From Parasphingorhabdus litoris DSM 22379 (GTDB taxonomy: Bacteria > Pseudomonadota > Alphaproteobacteria > Sphingomonadales > Sphingomonadaceae), in contig NZ_CP086727.1 in NCBI RefSeq assembly GCF_020906275.1, forward strand, positions 2,542,001-2,606,000: a DNA stretch of 64,000 bases, read 5' to 3'. The notes under the pieces are model-generated. The model ran no database searches. It was not told the DNA's origin and worked only from the letters and a program-made list of their open reading frames with translations. Made by a program: the position numbers and the translations under genes. Each line of letters starts with the position of its first letter. The stretch's first letter is position 1. Below, in pieces: positions 5,456-16,192 of this stretch.

Positions 5456-8368
5456 CTAAGGATTCGAGTCCATTGCCTGCACAATATCGACAGCACCATT
5501 CCTGTCCATTGCAGGGAGGATATAGGCGGCGACGGCATCTTCGCTGGTAAAAACCTGTGATGCGAGAGCTTTTATGTCTTCAACCGTCATGGTTTCCAAA
5601 ACCATCTTGCGCACCCGATGTCGGGCTATTCCATGACCCTCTGTCTGAGCATCGCCCAGAACTGACAACCAATAGCTGTTATTCTCCAATGTGCTGTCAA
5701 TATCGTCGATAATCGGCTTGACCGCCCGCCCAAAAATATCCTGATCGATGGTCCCCGTCGCAAGATCTTTACCAACGGCCAGAACGGCTTGCCGGATATC
5801 TTCTGCTTTTTCCGGGGCGGCGGTAACGCTGGCGAATATATATCCATAGCCTTCAAACAGATCGTTCGCGAATATTCCGGCACCCGGTGAATAGGTTGCC
5901 CCCATTTCTTCACGCAAAACGCTTGTCAGGCGGTTTCTAAAGATGCTGCGCAAGACCTGCATCTTGAATATATTACTTGGATCGGAAGCATCTGGCGCCG
6001 GCCAATAGACACGCACAACCGCCTGATCCGGATTCCCTTGATGATAATATACAAACGGCTCAGCAGGCGCCTCTGGAAAATCCAGCATCTGCATTTCTGG
6101 ATATGCATTCTTGCTATTGGCACGTTTGGGCAAAGCGCCGAATGTCCTGGCAGCCTCTGCAATGGCGGTTTCTCGATCAATGTCACCAACGATCGTAATT
6201 TCGATCAATCCATTCTCCAGTTGCGGACTAATCCAATCTCGAACTTCCTGAATTTGGGGAGACAGAAAAGCTTCCAGATCGGTATAACCATAGCGCGGAT
6301 CACCAGAACGGATCATGCGCGGCAACACCTTCTCTGCCACTGTCATCGGGGTGGCATCATGGGTTGGATACCAGGCCTTCATTTTTTCCCAATAGCGTTT
6401 CGCGATTTCGTGCCGGTAGGCCGGCGCGACGACATGTGCCGTCATCAGATTCAATTGATCGGCCAGATCTTCCCGGCCAGTCCTGCCGATAACCTCCAAA
6501 GCATCATTGTCCGGACGCAGCCGCACTCTCGCCGCCACCCTTTTCCCTGCAAAAAGTGTTGCTAGATCGTCAGCACGATGTCCAACCACACCGCTGTCGC
6601 CGATCAGGTTTTCTGCAAGCCTCCGTAGCTCTTCACTTTTGCGAGGCATAGAGAGAAAGCCGCTACCGACTCGCACCCGAATACCGATCGTATCGGTGTC
6701 GAAGTCTGTCTGCTTGAAGTTCAGGCGCACATTATTGGTAAAGGTTATGCGATAAGCGTCAGCATCTGGAAGGTAGGATTCGCTGCTGACACTTCCTGCC
6801 GTTCCAAATTGTGTATAGCCAAATTCCTGAGCTTCCTTTTTTTCCGGCGCTGACAGCGCAATTTGACGAGAGGTTGAAAAAGCCGACCGGATTTCTTCTT
6901 CGGGGTTTTCCAATTTGGCGCTGGTTGCCAGATAAATAACGGGTTCATCGAAGCTCGCCCAACGCTCTCGAAACACACGCTCGATCTCCGCGAGAGAGAT
7001 ATTGGCCGCAAATTTTTCAAATATCGCAAGATTGTCTTCTGGCGAGGTGAACACGCGTTCCTGCGCAAAACTGTTCACCAGCTCATTGGCGTAGTTATAT
7101 TCCGCGCGTGAATAGGTCTTGCGGGTCGATTTGCGATCCACAGCCGTCTCAAAACTCTTGCGCGCCCTAACCATTTGTTCGTCCAACTCGGCTTGGGAAA
7201 AGCCATAGGTCAAAATACTGCGGATCTCCTGATCACCAGCTGCAAGGGCCTTTTGCCAGTTTTCCGGACGACTGCGCAATCGCACGATCATACCATCAAC
7301 GGTTTGTTCTGCTGTATAGCGGCTGACCGTTGCATCCAGAAAGTCGGCGTCTCCTGTCTCTGTTTTTCGCCACAAACGACGATTCAGCATTCGCATACCC
7401 AAAATACGTGAGAAGGTGTTTTTTCGCTCCGCAATTGTATCATCGCGTCGCTCATAAGGGCTTAAAGCACCCAAGGACACAAAAGTAAGAATCTCATCAT
7501 TTTGATGATAGCCGATCTTGCCCGGAACAATTTCAGCTGATGGAGTTTTAGCATGGGCAAGCGCCGGCATGCTCGGTTTCCAATCGCTGAAATAGGCTTC
7601 GATTTTTTTGATCGCTTCGGCAGTATCTACATCGCCGATGAAAGCGATAAATGTATTTTCCGGACGGTAGTAACCGCGATAATATTTGACAAATTCCGAG
7701 CGGGGCATGGTGGCGATAGTTTCATCAATGCCAATGGGCAATCGGTCGACCAAACCACTACCCTGGGTCAGAAAGCCCATATTCGCAACGAGAGCCCGAA
7801 AGTTCACAGAATCTCGGCTGCGTTTTTCAGAGGCAATGACGCCACGCTCCCGTTCGATCGCATCTTTGTCCAACGTTAGATTTTCTGCCGTTTCGCGCAT
7901 GAGGAAAAAAGCCTCATTCAAGATTTCTTCACCGACCGTTGGCAGGTTAAGCTTATAGGTTGTCTGACTAAACCCTGTGCTCGCATTGGTGTCTGCGCCA
8001 AAGGCCAGGCCATAGCGTTCCAAACGTTTGACCATCTCCCCTTCAGGCACATTTTTGGAACCGTTAAACGCCATATGTTCCAGGAAATGCGCGATACCGC
8101 GCTGTTCTTCGGTTTCGTTCAAGGACCCCGTCGCGATGCGCATCCTTAAAGCGGCCACACCGCTTGGGGTGCTGTTTTTCATGACTGCATAACGCAGCCC
8201 GTTAGCCAGTATTCCATAAACCACGCGAGTGTCCGGTTTTAGATCGCTTCGGTCATGCGCAAAGCCGCTTTTGCGACCTGCATCTTTGGCCAATGCCGGA
8301 CTAGGCCCTAAGGTCAAAAAAACTGCAAGCAGCGCAGAAGGAAGTAGCAACCGGATATACTGTCGCAT
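5456..8368 (-). CDS. Exported M16 (insulinase/pitrilysin) family zinc protease, PqqL/FusC-like size
   Basis: A 970-residue protein with a Sec signal peptide (cleaved near A-L-A, residue 27), so probably periplasmic. The N-terminal M16 module has the inverted zinc motif H94-F-L-E-H98, with Glu174 (in E-R-E-R-G-V) about 75 residues on as third ligand. The C-terminal half repeats the M16 fold without a zinc motif, as expected for the two-lobed chamber of these proteases. It lies 223 bp downstream of, and on the same strand as, a TonB receptor. This recalls E. coli YddB-PqqL and Pectobacterium FusA-FusC, where the protease cuts imported protein. GGAG lies eight bases before the ATG. Confidence 0.9.
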   Translation of the reverse strand: MRQYIRLLLPSALLAVFLTLGPSPALAKDAGRKSGFAHDRSDLKPDTRVVYGILANGLRYAVMKNSTPSGVAALRMRIATGSLNETEEQRGIAHFLEHMAFNGSKNVPEGEMVKRLERYGLAFGADTNASTGFSQTTYKLNLPTVGEEILNEAFFLMRETAENLTLDKDAIERERGVIASEKRSRDSVNFRALVANMGFLTQGSGLVDRLPIGIDETIATMPRSEFVKYYRGYYRPENTFIAFIGDVDTAEAIKKIEAYFSDWKPSMPALAHAKTPSAEIVPGKIGYHQNDEILTFVSLGALSPYERRDDTIAERKNTFSRILGMRMLNRRLWRKTETGDADFLDATVSRYTAEQTVDGMIVRLRSRPENWQKALAAGDQEIRSILTYGFSQAELDEQMVRARKSFETAVDRKSTRKTYSRAEYNYANELVNSFAQERVFTSPEDNLAIFEKFAANISLAEIERVFRERWASFDEPVIYLATSAKLENPEEEIRSAFSTSRQIALSAPEKKEAQEFGYTQFGTAGSVSSESYLPDADAYRITFTNNVRLNFKQTDFDTDTIGIRVRVGSGFLSMPRKSEELRRLAENLIGDSGVVGHRADDLATLFAGKRVAARVRLRPDNDALEVIGRTGREDLADQLNLMTAHVVAPAYRHEIAKRYWEKMKAWYPTHDATPMTVAEKVLPRMIRSGDPRYGYTDLEAFLSPQIQEVRDWISPQLENGLIEITIVGDIDRETAIAEAARTFGALPKRANSKNAYPEMQMLDFPEAPAEPFVYYHQGNPDQAVVRVYWPAPDASDPSNIFKMQVLRSIFRNRLTSVLREEMGATYSPGAGIFANDLFEGYGYIFASVTAAPEKAEDIRQAVLAVGKDLATGTIDQDIFGRAVKPIIDDIDSTLENNSYWLSVLGDAQTEGHGIARHRVRKMVLETMTVEDIKALASQVFTSEDAVAAYILPAMDRNGAVDIVQAMDSNP

Positions 8369-8591
8369 TGCAAATTCTCCAGAGAATCAGGGGGATTTAT
8401 CTGATCTTGTTCAAAGCTATTACTATATAGGACGCGCTTCCAAACAAATTCCTCAATATATGGGGAAAATTATCTGCTACCCAAGCATCATCTATTACGG
8501 CGCGCGACAAGAGTTCATCAGTCGGTTCTGTCTCCTGAGGCCGATACGAGGTTTAGGGTGGGAACGATCGACCCCAGGAAACAGATGGGCT

Positions 8592-11500
8592 TTAGAAATT
8601 GGCACGGATACCCATTGTGACGGTGCGGCCGCCGTTAAATTGGAGGCTTTGAGGGAAGTTAAAGTCTGCACTGCCGATACCGAATTGTGAACTGGTAGTG
8701 GAGCGAATATCGGCTTCTTTGGAACCTTGCAGAAGATTGTCACCTTCTACAAACACAGTGAAAAGACCACCGAAGCGTTCAAAACTGTAAGAAAAACGAG
8801 CGTCCAATGTGCTGTACGATGGGATAACAGTGTTCAGATTGAACTCGTCAAAAGTCTGAGCAGTAGCATCCTGATGTGTAAAAATTACACGCCCCTGAAA
8901 TCCATCACGCTCATAGTCCAGCGATAGATTGTAAACCCATCGCGCTTGATCACGCAGAGCCCGATCAAGACTGAGTTGAATGATATCGCCATTGTCATCG
9001 CGAGCCGAAACCAAAGTCGGGAAGTCACCATTAGTATAGGTCGCGTTGGCTAATATTCCGAAATCACTGAGGAATCCTGGTAGAAAATTCAACCGCCGAG
9101 TAACCTCGAACTCGGCTCCCCAAATGGTTCCTCCTTCACCATTTTCTGGCCGATTGACCAAGAATTCCGTATTCGGCTGTAACTCCAGAAACTCTGGCCG
9201 CGTATCTGCTAGAGGTGCAAATCTCTCACGAAACCGCTGTTCTACGTCTCCATTTTCAGCCGATGAAGACAGCACGTTTGTGAAATTGTTGCTGATCTTC
9301 TTATAAAATAGTGACGCGCGAACCAGTCCAGGTGTATCATCGAAATAGTAAGCGATATCGAAATCAACATTGTCGGTCGTTGATGGCTTCAAATTTGGAT
9401 TGGCCTCCCGAATTGTTACGTTTGCAAAAGCCGGGCGCAAATCGACGCTAAAACTCCTCCCTCGGTTAAGGAGCCTGATATCTGGATGGACTGTAGAACG
9501 GAAGTAACCCAGTCTCGCCACGATATTGGAGTTGGGACGATATGTTGCAAGAAAGCTCGGCGTCCAAGTCTGCACAGTGCCTGCAGTGCTATCAACAAAC
9601 ACAAGACCGGCATCCACAAACGTCTCTCGTGGTTCTCTCCGGATACCCGGCAAATCCAATATCACCGTTGGTGAAGATATCTGCTGTCCGTCGCGTCTTT
9701 CGCGCTCATATCGAACGCCGGCTACCAAATCAAAGCGACCAAAGTTCACCTTCGCTTCTAGATAGCCTGCAATTTTCTCTTCAATGGTTTTGGTCGGCCG
9801 AAGGAAGCCAGCGCTATCTAATATCGGATCCACTGTCGTGAAGTCAGAAAAAGTGTAGCGCTCTTCATTGAACATAGTAGCCGGATCATCGGCCACAAAA
9901 TCAGGCAGTTGGGCGAAAATACTCTTTGAGACATCCGATGTCAAAAACGGAACAAAAAAACCGTTTGCGCCAAGTCTACCAAAATCTTCGTTGCTAAAAG
10001 TTCCGGAATCAAACACTGATAATGGCGTTTCTCGGCCAATAATCCTCGAAAATCTTTGACTGAGAACTTGTCGTGGATCGGAAAATGTACCGACAGTTTC
10101 TCGAACGTTTCTATTATATTTTGATCCTATTTCAACATAGTCAATAAAGTCAGGAGCCGGAATATATCGCGCTTTCAATTCCGCGCTATACGACGTCGTC
10201 GGGTTATCAATTGGGTTCACAGTTGCGAAACGCACATCATATCTGGACGGATCTGAAATACGCGCCAATCCTTCGGCTGTAAGTGAAGGAACCGGGATAC
10301 CATTGTCCGCAAAAAAGAAACCGCCTCCGACAACACGTGGCGTCTGTGCTGCATCATCATCAGGATTTACGAGGATCGTTGAAGGGTTGATCAAGTCGAA
10401 AATATCAGTCGAAGCGGTCTGAAGCAAAGCAATAGAACTATTATTGCCCTCTGCGCGCGATCGCGCATATCCAGCCTTGTAGAATATTTCAAAACGGCCA
10501 ACATTTGTATCGCCGCGAAAGCTTATAGTGTCTGAAGTGAGCTTTTCGTCTCGCGCTGTAAAATTCTGCCGAGGCACGAGAGCCGTCAGCGTTTGGCGCT
10601 GTCTCACTTCTCCGCCAAGTTCAGGGATCGGCATCTCCCGACGAAAGGTTCTAAAACCAATCGCTGCCAATGCATTGCTGCTTTGGACGTCCCTGACGTT
10701 ACGTTGCAAATCCAATCTCAACTTGGTGTGATCTGCAATGTCCCACGCAAAGTTTATCGAACCGACGATCGACTCTTCAGCCCGCTCTCGGCGAGTATAG
10801 GAAGAGCTCGTTATAAGCTGCTGGTTGACTTCTGGATCAAAGGGGAATTCAAAGCTTGCGGGAATGCGGGTTATGGTATTAAAACCTATTGGGAATACTG
10901 GCGGTATAATATCAACAATCGACACATCGTAGTTTGATCGATCGGTCTTGCGATACTGAATTGTCGCGGCGACACCAAAATTAGGTGTTATCTTCTTTGC
11001 GAGCGTCCCGTTGAATTGATATTCATCACCAAATCGACTTTTGAAGTTCCGCTCGCCTTCAGCGCTCAGATTTAGTGCAAAATCCCCGTAGTCGAGCCCT
11101 GATTTAGTTTCAATTTCAACCAGACCGCCCGACCCCGTTGATTCATGGCTTGGCAACAAAGATTTGTGAATAGTAACCTGCGAAATATTGTCGGCCAGAA
11201 ATCCACTCAAGTCGATGGTGCGATCAAAACTGGTGCCCTGCAACTCCAGCCCGTTAAGCTGCACATTAATCGCTTCCGAACTAAACCCTCGAACGGTGAT
11301 TCGCGACCCTTCACCCGTTTCATCATCGCGCCCAAAGGCCACGCCCGGTACGCGTCGCAAAGCCTCCGAAACAGTCTCAGCAGGAAAGCCACCCAACAGG
11401 TCAGACGAAACAACCGTCGCACTGTTGTCCGCATTTTTCTGCTTGTTCAGCGCTTGTTGGATGGAACTGCGATAACCGAAAACCACAATATCCTGATTGG

Positions 11501-12176
11501 CATCACCAATTTGCACATTGGCTTGCTGACGCGAGCCAGGGGATACTGACACTATCGCGGTCCTTGCTTGCTCGCCAAGATATTCCACACGAATGATCTG
11601 CTGTCCGCGCGGAACCGCTGGAAAATAATAATGACCGCGATCGTCGGTTATCGTTTCCAAGTTGGTTCCATCGACCCGCACCAATGCCCCTTTTAACGCA
11701 GCACCGGTGCTTCTGTTTACGACCGTTCCCGCGACAACACCTGTACTGCCGTCATCCGATGAACCATCATTTTGTGCAGCGGTAGAAATGGATGCGGCCT
11801 GCACTGCAGTCGGCGAAGCAACAGCAAATCTCGCAGCATTTCTCCGTTGAGACGTGTCGGCAATTCTAAGCGTAACAACATTCGGCTGGATTTCCCGAAA
11901 GGAAATGGAGGTTCCGCGAAGCAGCAACCGCAAAGCCTGGGTTGGGGTCAGTCGGCCATTGATCGCATTGGCCCTTTTATTTGCAATCATGCTGGGTGGA
12001 TAGACGAGGTTCTTGCCGGTTTTCAGCGCGTAATCCTTCAATGCAGAAGATAGAGACTGGTCTGGCATGTTAAACGACATGGCCTGTTCCTGCGCATGCG
12101 CCGATCCGACGATAGCAATATTGGCGGCACCGGTGAGCATAGCTGCGTGGAGCAGCCTGAACGAACGAGATGGCAT
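8592..12176 (-). CDS. TonB-dependent receptor with N-terminal STN and carboxypeptidase-regulatory-like domains
   Basis: A 1194-residue outer-membrane receptor. Order of parts: signal peptide (to A-H-A, about 28); STN signalling domain (about 33-105), which normally contacts a FecR partner; a polar linker; a carboxypeptidase-regulatory-like beta domain (about 146-225); a TonB-box-like segment D-I-V-V-F-G (229-234); plug with V-P-G-V and R-I-T-V-R-G-F motifs (from about 250); and a 22-strand-type barrel ending in aromatic Phe. The ATG at 12176 has AGGGG six bases upstream, better than a start at 12218. Sigma and FecR genes lie immediately upstream, so it is probably induced by its own ligand. 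The substrate is unknown. Confidence 0.92.
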   Translation of the reverse strand: MPSRSFRLLHAAMLTGAANIAIVGSAHAQEQAMSFNMPDQSLSSALKDYALKTGKNLVYPPSMIANKRANAINGRLTPTQALRLLLRGTSISFREIQPNVVTLRIADTSQRRNAARFAVASPTAVQAASISTAAQNDGSSDDGSTGVVAGTVVNRSTGAALKGALVRVDGTNLETITDDRGHYYFPAVPRGQQIIRVEYLGEQARTAIVSVSPGSRQQANVQIGDANQDIVVFGYRSSIQQALNKQKNADNSATVVSSDLLGGFPAETVSEALRRVPGVAFGRDDETGEGSRITVRGFSSEAINVQLNGLELQGTSFDRTIDLSGFLADNISQVTIHKSLLPSHESTGSGGLVEIETKSGLDYGDFALNLSAEGERNFKSRFGDEYQFNGTLAKKITPNFGVAATIQYRKTDRSNYDVSIVDIIPPVFPIGFNTITRIPASFEFPFDPEVNQQLITSSSYTRRERAEESIVGSINFAWDIADHTKLRLDLQRNVRDVQSSNALAAIGFRTFRREMPIPELGGEVRQRQTLTALVPRQNFTARDEKLTSDTISFRGDTNVGRFEIFYKAGYARSRAEGNNSSIALLQTASTDIFDLINPSTILVNPDDDAAQTPRVVGGGFFFADNGIPVPSLTAEGLARISDPSRYDVRFATVNPIDNPTTSYSAELKARYIPAPDFIDYVEIGSKYNRNVRETVGTFSDPRQVLSQRFSRIIGRETPLSVFDSGTFSNEDFGRLGANGFFVPFLTSDVSKSIFAQLPDFVADDPATMFNEERYTFSDFTTVDPILDSAGFLRPTKTIEEKIAGYLEAKVNFGRFDLVAGVRYERERRDGQQISSPTVILDLPGIRREPRETFVDAGLVFVDSTAGTVQTWTPSFLATYRPNSNIVARLGYFRSTVHPDIRLLNRGRSFSVDLRPAFANVTIREANPNLKPSTTDNVDFDIAYYFDDTPGLVRASLFYKKISNNFTNVLSSSAENGDVEQRFRERFAPLADTRPEFLELQPNTEFLVNRPENGEGGTIWGAEFEVTRRLNFLPGFLSDFGILANATYTNGDFPTLVSARDDNGDIIQLSLDRALRDQARWVYNLSLDYERDGFQGRVIFTHQDATAQTFDEFNLNTVIPSYSTLDARFSYSFERFGGLFTVFVEGDNLLQGSKEADIRSTTSSQFGIGSADFNFPQSLQFNGGRTVTMGIRANF

Positions 12177-12240
12177 AATGATCCCCTGTCTTATCTTTCC
12201 CTGCTGGCCGTCAGTCATGCGCTGACTAGCCTCACGAAAA

Positions 12241-12270
12241 GTAAGACGCGCGAGTGCTCAACTCCCTCAA
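12241..12270 (-). promoter_or_regulatory. Candidate ECF-sigma-dependent promoter of the TonB receptor
   Basis: On the minus strand TTGAGGGA (complement of 12263-12270) is followed 14 bp later by CGTC (complement of 12245-12248), about 65 bp before the receptor ATG. A CGTC-like -10 is common for ECF sigma factors, and the position between FecR and the receptor suits FecI-type control. It is a single copy, so the match is weak evidence. Confidence 0.3.
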
Positions 12271-12332
12271 AAAATATTTCATGCTGAATGATAAATGCGC
12301 AGAAGCGAGGTTGGCTTTGGAGGAATAAAAGC

Positions 12333-12355
12333 AGTCTTTTCAGAAACTAAAGACT
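12333..12355 (-). terminator. Weak hairpin at the end of the FecR gene
   Basis: A 7-bp stem AGTCTTT/AAAGACT with a 9-nt loop overlaps the FecR stop codon and is followed on the minus strand by GCTTTTA. It may attenuate sigma/FecR transcription before the receptor promoter. The stem is short. Confidence 0.3.
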
Positions 12356-13424
12356 ATTCTCTCCAAGTCAGAATAATATCATCCTCATCGGATTGCGCAT
12401 TGTTTGCGACAGGAAAAGAGGCCTCCAGCGCCGCAGCAAAACTGTCAACTGACCCGACCTGAAAAATACCGCTTACCCGCATGTCCGATAAAGTCGCGTC
12501 ACCAACCACCAGTTTGCGCGTGGAATAGCGATTCACTTCCTGAACAATCGCTCCAAGCGGTTCGTTATCGAAAATCAACCTGCCATCTTTCCAACTGGTC
12601 ACAGCATCCGTGTTGATCATGCTAACTTTAAAAGGTTGATCGCCCAGCGCGACCAGCTGTTCGCCAGGCCGCAATTGTTTGGTGCCAACGGCGTTTGGAT
12701 TGGCATCCTCGCGATCCTCATCGTCAACCGTCACAATCCCTTCGATAAGGGTCACACGTATTTCATCATCCGCACGTCGCACCGAAAAAGTCGTTCCGAT
12801 AGCGGTTACGAGCTTACCATCGGCTTCCACAACAAAGGGGCGACTAGCGTCTTTCGCCACCTCGAATAGGGCTTCACCGCGAAGCAAAATAACATCACGC
12901 CTCTCATTACTGAAGTTAATCTGGATCAAGCTATCCGTGTTGAGTTCGACCACCGACCCATCTGGCAAATTTACGGTCGACCTTTGGCCAATAGCCGTTT
13001 TGTAAATGGGCGATGCCTGAGGTTCCGCCTGCGCCAGTTGATCAACAGGATCGATGTTCCCAGACCCGTTCCCAAACTGGAATGGATTAAAGATGACCAC
13101 GGAGATCGCCAACACCAATAGAGACGCAGCAATCGCACCATATTTCAGCCAACCATTATTATTGGCTGCGGCCGGCATAGCCAACGCACTCTGGCGCATG
13201 GCAAGAATATCGTCATCAACCGCACTGTCCTGCATTGCTGTCCATACTTCTTCCTGCAATGCATATGCTTCGGCATGGCGTGGGGATTCCTCCAGCCAGG
13301 CTTTGAAGCGTTTTTGGTCACTTCTGCCAGCATTATCGGCCCGTAACCGAGCAAACCAATGTGCCGCCTGCTCTTCGACACTGTTACTCGTATCGAATGC
13401 GTTCTTGGATCGCGCATCTTTCAT
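12354..13424 (-). CDS. FecR-family anti-sigma/signal-transducing inner-membrane protein
   Basis: A 356-residue protein. The N-terminal cytoplasmic segment (about 15-65, with A-x-x-W-F-A-R-L and F-x-x-W-L-x-x-S-P-x-H-A-x-A) is the DUF4880 region that binds the sigma factor. One membrane helix follows (about 94-114), then the periplasmic FecR domain with the V-x-L-x-D-G-S-x-V-x-L-N-x-x-S core, and a C-terminal STN-like subdomain that would meet the receptor's signalling domain. Its ATG overlaps the sigma stop (ATGA), so the two are translationally coupled. By analogy with FecIR it holds or activates the sigma factor when the receptor is loaded. Confidence 0.92.
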   Translation of the reverse strand: MKDARSKNAFDTSNSVEEQAAHWFARLRADNAGRSDQKRFKAWLEESPRHAEAYALQEEVWTAMQDSAVDDDILAMRQSALAMPAAANNNGWLKYGAIAASLLVLAISVVIFNPFQFGNGSGNIDPVDQLAQAEPQASPIYKTAIGQRSTVNLPDGSVVELNTDSLIQINFSNERRDVILLRGEALFEVAKDASRPFVVEADGKLVTAIGTTFSVRRADDEIRVTLIEGIVTVDDEDREDANPNAVGTKQLRPGEQLVALGDQPFKVSMINTDAVTSWKDGRLIFDNEPLGAIVQEVNRYSTRKLVVGDATLSDMRVSGIFQVGSVDSFAAALEASFPVANNAQSDEDDIILTWRE

Positions 13425-13999
13425 TCTGACGACCCCAAACGCTGTGTAAGATGTTTGATGGCAACCATCATATGCTTTTCAACTGAACTCATTGACATAC
13501 CCAATTGTTGCGCAATCTCGCGATATTTAAACTCCTCAAACCTGTGCAACAGGAAAACTGTCCGTGTGCGTTCAGGCAATTCGTTTAATGCGTTTTTCAG
13601 CGCCACTAGTTTCTCTTTACCTAACAAGACGCGTTCGGGTGAGATTTCCTCAAAAGCATTTTCATTTTGATCAGATAGTTGTTTGGTAAAAGCACGCTTA
13701 GTCGCTTCACGGCGTGCCTTATCGCGCAACAGGTTTGCGGCAATCTGGAAAATGAAGGCTTCGGGACGTTCCAGATCAGTATTATCTGAGCGGGAAGTCA
13801 GACGAAAGAAAACGTCCTGAACCAGATCTTCGACCTCATTTTGATTGTAGACTCTTTTTCGAAAATATTTTTCCAAAGGAATCTGAAATTGATCAAAAAG
13901 GTCTTTGAGGTCTTTATGTGACGACCTGCCCTCAGATCCATCATCACCTGCGCGAAACCTGCCCGTTTTCCGGGGTTCAGTATGCTTTTTCGATGCCAA
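13421..13999 (-). CDS. ECF-type RNA polymerase sigma factor, FecI-like
   Basis: Sigma region 2 (D-L-F-D-Q-F through V-E-D-L-V-Q-D-V-F) and region 4 (L-P-E-R-T-R-T-V-F-L-L-H-R-F-E with the HTH Y-R-E-I-A-Q-Q-L-G) are clear, and there is no region 3, as in ECF factors. The N-terminus has no ATG. I use the TTG at 13999 (192 residues, usual FecI length) because a TTGACA-17 bp-GCTAAT promoter-like pair falls within the longer alternative, which starts at TTG 14071. It is coupled to fecR downstream and divergent from fadH. Confidence 0.88.
   Translation of the reverse strand: MASKKHTEPRKTGRFRAGDDGSEGRSSHKDLKDLFDQFQIPLEKYFRKRVYNQNEVEDLVQDVFFRLTSRSDNTDLERPEAFIFQIAANLLRDKARREATKRAFTKQLSDQNENAFEEISPERVLLGKEKLVALKNALNELPERTRTVFLLHRFEEFKYREIAQQLGMSMSSVEKHMMVAIKHLTQRLGSSE

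Positions 14000-14033: not shown

Positions 14034-16192
<2,159 letters not shown>

Follow-up and report, generated by a model that had tools for sequence, protein, structure and literature searches.

A Parasphingorhabdus litoris locus in which a FecIR-type switch, a TonB receptor and an M16 protease may form one import unit

In a 64-kb stretch of DNA from Parasphingorhabdus litoris DSM 22379 (contig NZ_CP086727.1, positions 2,542,001 to 2,606,000; hereafter the window, whose numbering is used below; the whole genome is 3.61 Mb), four genes lie in order on the minus strand, encoding an extracytoplasmic function (ECF) sigma factor, a FecR-type anti-sigma factor, a TonB-dependent receptor and an M16 protease. 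This arrangement raises the question of whether the four genes form a single unit in which a ligand sensed by the receptor induces both its own import and its cleavage. Receptor–protease pairs are known from the Fus system of Pectobacterium (FusA and FusC; for FusC, excerpts of PMC6071955) and from YddB/PqqL of E. coli, which are grouped as ‘protease-associated import systems’ in excerpts of Grinter et al. 2019 (PMC6793856). An earlier reading, made from the sequence alone, proposed that the present locus joins such a pair to a FecIR-type switch, so that a proteinaceous ligand would induce its own uptake and digestion. We consider it reasonably probable that the locus is a ligand-sensing receptor–protease import unit under its own ECF sigma factor. 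This reading builds on gene order, domain content, conserved linkage and a shared promoter-like motif with fixed spacing that changes in a coordinated way between loci. The four genes are:

13421..13999, minus strand: ECF sigma gene, FecI-like, with a TTG start and Pfam domains Sigma70_r2 and Sigma70_r4_2; the open reading frame (ORF) stays open to 14071
12354..13424, minus strand: FecR-type anti-sigma factor or sensor, with Pfam matches to FecR (E 1.3e-21) and DUF4880 (E 2e-12) and one membrane span read by eye
8592..12218, minus strand: TonB-dependent receptor of 1208 amino acids, with STN, CarboxypepD_reg, plug and barrel domains and a TIGR01782 match above cut-off
5456..8368, minus strand: exported two-lobed M16 metalloprotease of 970 amino acids, assigned by Pfam, with HFLEH at residues 94-98

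Pfam domains and coordinates agree with the sequence-only reading that these are four real genes in this order and on one strand, with the start of fecR overlapping the end of the sigma gene by ATGA; an ECF sigma gene adjoining a fecR gene with DUF4880 and FecR domains is a FecIR-type arrangement. The STN signalling domain that had been assigned to the receptor lies at its N terminus (PF07660, E 1.2e-10), and a profile search aligns this part with the signalling domains of FpvA, FecA, PupB and HasR. The protease likewise bears out its first description as a two-lobed exported enzyme with an intact HxxEH motif: HFLEH, E174 and E181 are invariant across nine aligned orthologues, and the N terminus reads by eye as a signal peptide. 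In a fold comparison with solved structures, the full-length protease model most resembles PqqL, a P. gingivalis M16 protein (9ldy) and FusC, placing a protease of the FusC/PqqL kind beside the receptor. We dropped the claim that the receptor itself belongs to the FusA group, as it is not recognizable as FusA by sequence or profile search: no chain of that name occurs among 22 PDB sequence matches (E 0.01) or 16 profile matches (E 1e-10), in a library not checked for the presence of FusA, and its absence from the 50 receptor-fold matches shown excludes nothing. The only other STN match in this genome is a receptor at positions 2910439-2915491 of contig C1 of G000 (L092:10439-15491), which lies behind its own FecR and ECF sigma genes; its nearest NCBIfam model is a siderophore subfamily, below cut-off, and there is no M16 gene nearby.

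The gap between the receptor and protease genes measures 223 bp, and a shared transcript of the two genes could therefore not be assumed. The gap holds TTGAGGAATTTGTTTGGAAGCGCGTCCTA and the region upstream of the receptor gene holds TTGAGGGAGTTGAGCACTCGCGCGTCTTA, two promoter-like sequences with equal spacing. Together with a copy inside the sigma gene, these are the only three perfect copies of TTGAGG-N15-GCGTC[CT]T[AG] in the genome, all in this locus and within a span of 5.3 kb; the reversed motif, used as a control, has no perfect match in the window. The three copies are:

12242..12270, minus strand: shared promoter-like motif before the receptor gene, exact; core found before 21 of 30 related receptor genes
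8428..8456, minus strand: exact copy of the shared promoter-like motif in the 223-bp gap that precedes the M16 gene; core found before 17 of 25 related M16 genes
13625..13653, minus strand: copy of the shared motif within the sigma gene, ahead of fecR, exact; core found in 22 of 28 related sigma genes, with constrained codon choice

To count the core TGAGG-N15-GC[GA]TC, we scanned both strands of 30 loci from the closer receptor group described below (the window, L100-L124, L142, L076, L078 and L079; 651,111 bases). Within sigma genes the core has 22 matches; a further 21 precede receptor genes and 17 precede M16 genes. Of the six matches elsewhere, one, in L123, is followed after 87 nt by a receptor match too short for a label. 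Spacings of 12, 13, 14, 16, 17 and 18 give 3, 5, 2, 3, 1 and 7 matches (21 in total), none of them labelled at these sites. The sigma-gene site, present in 22 of the 28 loci with a sigma relative, reads GCGTC in 16 and GCATC in six, the latter all of the Erythrobacter type (L109, L110, L111, L113, L115 and L117); there the change turns a valine codon into an isoleucine codon. The G or A in this −10 part matches that of the sigma-gene site in the same locus at 21 of 21 receptor sites and 17 of 17 protease sites. The receptor gene is preceded by an ECF-type motif that we regard as a putative promoter, and the shared motif suggests that receptor and protease are turned on together.

Loci that deviate from this pattern fall into three sets. 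Six with a sigma relative have no site in the sigma gene (L078, L112, L119, L120, L121 and L142), and their sigma factors are 27-45% identical to that of the window; L078 and L112 carry another upstream sequence instead. In these two, receptor and protease are ~51-58% identical to those of the window and sigma and FecR ~27-31%, so their regulators seem to have been exchanged. Three others (L124, L076 and L079) have the sigma-gene and receptor sites and no M16 site, and their protease genes would most naturally be reached by read-through from the receptor promoter. The gaps by called starts are about 26, 65 and 101 bp in L076, L124 and L079, respectively. We gave up the idea that a long gap always comes with a separate protease site, as gaps measured to the start of homology overlap (165-219 bp without a site versus 182-272 bp with one). 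Finally, no site was found at two M16 genes that stand apart from any receptor (L073 and L074), in line with the missing sigma gene there.

The copy inside the sigma gene can be examined for constraint at the nucleotide level. A leucine codon in its −10 region, which was not part of the search pattern, is TTA, TTG or CTA in 22 of 22 sites and never CTG. In the six loci with a GC content of at least 0.61 (L104, L116, L118, L124, L076 and L079), these three codons have an expected share of only 0.01-0.14; a T-ending codon at the −35 part has an expected share of 0.04-0.24 in the same loci, although that T was in the selection pattern. The loci are related, and products of these shares are not probabilities. 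This codon usage is good evidence of nucleotide-level constraint on the intragenic site. We infer that the site is a promoter for fecR that leaves out sigma itself and would act as a damper.

The sigma gene seems to have a promoter of a different kind:

14035..14062, minus strand: candidate housekeeping-type promoter of the sigma gene, TTGACA, 16-nt spacer, GCTAAT; TTGACA is present in ten of ten close loci, and the −10 element was read by eye

Among ten close loci, the window being one of them, eight have TTG at the codon aligned with 13999 and two have GTG. Because this start is kept and TTGACA lies upstream in all ten, position 13999, which the sequence-only reading had also chosen, is a better start than the frame opening at 14071, and the sigma gene is probably served by a housekeeping-type promoter. 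Further upstream, a short element of the type GACATA-N2-AGG-CA (14077-14092) is partly kept in the ten close loci; it overlaps the called start of an oxidoreductase ORF that runs divergently and matches its family only from about residue 33 onwards. At its other end the module is followed by a tRNA-Lys gene on the opposite strand.

We asked whether receptor and protease stay together in relatives, as the sequence-only reading would have it, using 298 genomes of the family (at most two candidates scored per genome here and in the class-wide sample; receptor orthologues at E of at most 1e-150, M16 orthologues at over 50% identity). From the side of the receptor the linkage is complete: orthologues occur in seven genomes, and in all seven an M16 orthologue lies in the same locus. 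Five of the six relatives have sigma, fecR, receptor and M16 genes in this order on one strand; G146 differs in having its M16 gene divergent. From the side of the protease it is incomplete, as two of the nine genomes with an M16 orthologue (G243 and G153, of the window's own genus) have no receptor orthologue; there the M16 gene adjoins polA, and none of its three partner genes has a relative in the 19 kb around it. Unlinking, which would speak against the sequence-only reading, is therefore seen in two of nine protease orthologues. In an M16 tree one of these orphans (L073; the other, L074, is not in the tree) groups with L100 inside the linked clade (support 0.996). Because it nests among linked copies, the unlinked state looks secondary. 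The module as a whole is rare and patchy: under strict thresholds one of 385 genomes in a class-wide sample matched, the window's own, a sample that adds rarity only.

Could the protease be a housekeeping neighbour that came to lie here by chance? M16 relatives are common, found in 203 of the 298 family genomes at E 1e-60, which is what such an explanation would draw on. Yet the specific orthologue is linked in seven of seven receptor loci, the motif before the protease changes in step with those before its neighbours, and none of the 11 paralogue loci that we fetched (L081-L091, ~34-37% identity) shows, in 17 kb, a relative of the sigma, fecR or receptor gene. We rejected chance adjacency on the linkage and the paralogue loci; a chance association is strongly disfavoured, and we give it almost no credence. 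Nor are M16 genes simply common beside STN receptors: a survey of 39 family genomes gave 48 STN matches in 18 of them (four regions being short), and only three have an adjacent M16 gene (the window, L077 and L179). L179, from G006, is a further case of the pairing, with a different STN receptor, divergent FecR and sigma, and an M16 gene directly behind; its protease is 28% identical to that of the window over 210 residues.

The protease might instead serve the signalling pathway, cutting FecR as a first-site protease, or the signalling domain of the receptor, rather than cargo. Periplasmic proteases are known to act in cell-surface signalling of this kind, and the protease gene shares the motif found ahead of fecR. 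Against this stand the 45 of 48 surveyed STN matches (four regions short) without an adjacent M16 gene, which indicate that signalling does not usually need one; the M16 genes of the two same-genus genomes, which have no relative of this FecR within 19 kb; and the structural comparison, in which the closest full-length structures include FusC, a cargo-cutting enzyme. We regard a signalling role as improbable.

Searching named genomes with the receptor alignment gave 50 loci, comprising 26 of group I, 22 of group II and two weak partial receptor matches (L148 and L149) that were left out before counting; three pairs of overlapping entries (L104/L075, L112/L080 and L124/L077) were counted once each. 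Group I receptors are 41-85% identical to that of the window. They come from Erythrobacter-type genera, Emcibacter, Robiginitomaculum and Algimonas, and also from uncultured Sphingomonadaceae and Sphingorhabdus, a Caulobacterales and a Brevundimonas metagenome-assembled genome (MAG) and two gammaproteobacterial MAGs, one of them Woeseiaceae. Qipengyuania flava and Pelagerythrobacter marinus are among the carriers of the module. An M16 gene lies in 21 of the 26 named group I loci, and an M16 relative at 40% identity or more in 25 of the 30 loci of the motif count. Arrangements vary: in L120 the M16 gene (43% identity) is 4.6 kb from the receptor gene, and in L142 the sigma and fecR genes lie between receptor and M16 genes. 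L102 and L103 have a second TonB receptor gene (1030 amino acids) ~0.6 and 1.0 kb behind the M16 gene.

Group II receptors, at 28-33% identity, come from Sphingopyxis, Sphingomonas, Hephaestia, Woeseiaceae and others, and 17 of the 22 loci have an M16 gene, 2-6 kb away in three (L135, L136 and L147). Seven of the eight group II proteases that were aligned are 17-19% identical to that of the window and the eighth (L132) is 33% identical; the one group II member compared with solved structures (L128) is closest to the M16B peptidases 4nnz and 3amj. In the M16 tree, receptor-linked proteases fall in several places, with long deep branches. Because distant receptors pair with other M16 lineages, repeated recruitment of M16 proteases of different lineages by related receptors is the simplest reading that this comparison suggests, and it points to function rather than inheritance alone. 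Group II has a motif of its own, TGTCGG-N16-CGTCT, which was read by eye before counting and, in 23 loci (L142 included), stands before the receptor gene in ten and before the sigma gene in six; spacings from 10 to 19 other than 16 give at most one match each. The group II sigma factor may thus raise itself. Several group II loci (L127-L146) also show by eye a GC-rich inverted repeat in the receptor–M16 gap, possibly an attenuator or processing site.

The receptor may import no protein at all. Its ligand could be a metal chelate or another compound that is not a polypeptide, or else a peptide natural product of small size, and the M16 protease would then trim a peptide part or clear by-products. 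Siderophore and haem receptors have the STN parts most like this one, and lasso-peptide clusters are wired alike with a different peptidase (excerpts of PMC9266682). Two-lobed M16 proteases of different lineages nevertheless recur beside these receptors, which would be odd for an incidental peptidase, and the genome's other STN receptor, with its siderophore-subfamily best match (below cut-off), has no M16 gene nearby. We consider this explanation unlikely, though worth keeping in mind. A protective role, in which the protease destroys antibacterial peptides entering through the receptor, would suit co-induction, and receptors of the same fold (among the receptor-fold matches) admit such agents: Cir admits colicin Ia and microcin V, and FhuA admits microcin J25. 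However, it would be poor design for a toxic ligand to increase the very route by which it enters, and no further gene recurs around the module, as no other ORF of at least 60 amino acids was found to recur in a comparison of 28 loci, with output read for seven. Protection seems to us very unlikely.

Under the receptor–protease import reading, a ligand would bind the TonB receptor, whose STN domain would signal to FecR; FecR would then release or activate the sigma factor, itself made from the housekeeping-type promoter. The sigma factor would fire three copies of one promoter, giving more FecR (a damping loop), more receptor and more M16 protease, and the ligand, or its polypeptide part, would enter the periplasm through the receptor and be cut by the protease. 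We infer each of these functional elements, from the motif being the promoter of this sigma factor through signalling, transport and cleavage to the polypeptide nature of the ligand.

Several observations weigh against this reading. The motif was read by eye in the window, then in relatives, then in its GCATC form, before counting, and the discovery loci are inside the counts. With one mismatch allowed there are four genome matches (one extra site, 1.3 Mb away) and four for the reversed control, and the first window-derived pattern with up to three mismatches gave 27 against 39; because these tolerant counts are no higher than the control, only the perfect copies stand out. The shift from G to A in the −10 part may have happened once and been passed on among related loci. 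A general promoter scan did not list the candidate sigma-gene promoter at 14035..14062, and the general scans gave nine sigma-70 sites against 10.1 in shuffles and ten terminators against 9.6. Five group I loci have no M16 gene (L114, L116, L118, L119 and L123): in L116, 10 kb downstream were seen, and L118, L119 and L123 are limited by contig ends. L114 (Qipengyuania citrea) is probably a remnant: its receptor match starts only after residue 328, and no regulators or M16 gene were found near it. In two same-genus genomes the protease persists without receptor or motif, so it may also serve some purpose independent of them. In the window flanks, where ORF translations were judged by eye, nothing like FusB (a TonB protein) or FusD (the ABC transporter of the Fus system) was recognized. 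The receptor model resembles TonB receptors in general and is uninformative about the ligand.

Comparison with described systems shows which parts of the arrangement are familiar. Like Fus and YddB/PqqL, the locus has a TonB receptor gene with an exported two-lobed M16 protease whose model fold is closest to PqqL, 9ldy and FusC, and its distribution is sporadic. In contrast to Fus, its receptor is not recognizable as FusA and carries STN and CarboxypepD_reg domains, and by eye no FusB- or FusD-like neighbour was recognized. The ydd/pqqL genes are under Fur control according to excerpts of PMC6793856, a paper in whose main text ‘FecR’ and ‘STN’ do not occur, whereas the window locus has its own ECF sigma factor and FecR. 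The module would thus work like Fus, and we do not assign it to the Fus system. With FecIRA it shares the ECF sigma factor, FecR, the STN receptor and an ECF-type motif before the receptor gene, but it also carries copies of the motif before the protease gene and, ahead of fecR, within the sigma gene. In the related group II loci a different motif precedes the receptor gene and, in six of them, the sigma gene too. The lasso-peptide isopeptidase clusters (astexin, sphingopyxin and rubrinodin) likewise unite sigma/anti-sigma genes, a TonB transporter and a peptidase; according to excerpts of PMC9266682, however, they use a serine-type isopeptidase and make their own lasso peptide, whereas in the window module the peptidase is an M16 enzyme and only four genes recur. 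The linked peptidase thus does not fit that class. The fecI-fecR-SMc04205 locus of S. meliloti similarly places FecIR beside a TonB receptor, with a putative transcription start mapped upstream of fecR, but excerpts of PMC6180224 identify no promoter motif there and mention no M16 gene.

A FecIR switch, a receptor and an M16 protease joined in one described system were not found in the open-licence literature, a body of work outside which most subscription journals lie. The earlier remark that no described FusA/FusC locus under FecIR-type control was known agrees with this for the M16 version within that literature. It needs qualifying on the wider point, as the combination of sigma/anti-sigma pair, receptor and peptidase is not unprecedented, because the lasso-peptide clusters combine them (excerpts of PMC9266682). 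Its central idea, a Fus-like pair joined to a FecIR-type switch, gains from the STN match, the PqqL/9ldy/FusC fold and the shared motif and loses its FusA-like receptor. Overall the earlier interpretation is partly supported, and the motif evidence strengthens it.

If the import reading is true, bacteria of this kind would detect an external polypeptide-containing ligand and switch on the import gate and the cutting protease together, and protease-associated import would extend to receptors not recognizable as FusA. More tentatively, and with slightly less than even confidence, we propose a general class of ECF/FecR-controlled polypeptide import in sphingomonads, relatives of Robiginitomaculum and Algimonas, and Woeseiaceae, in which M16 proteases were repeatedly recruited, with the addition, in the window's group, of a working intragenic promoter that raises FecR and not sigma, a built-in damper. 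Such a promoter would show cleanly how a regulatory element can sit inside the coding sequence of its own regulator. The motif evidence names a sigma factor, its likely promoter and its targets, and makes the proposal testable without knowing the ligand.

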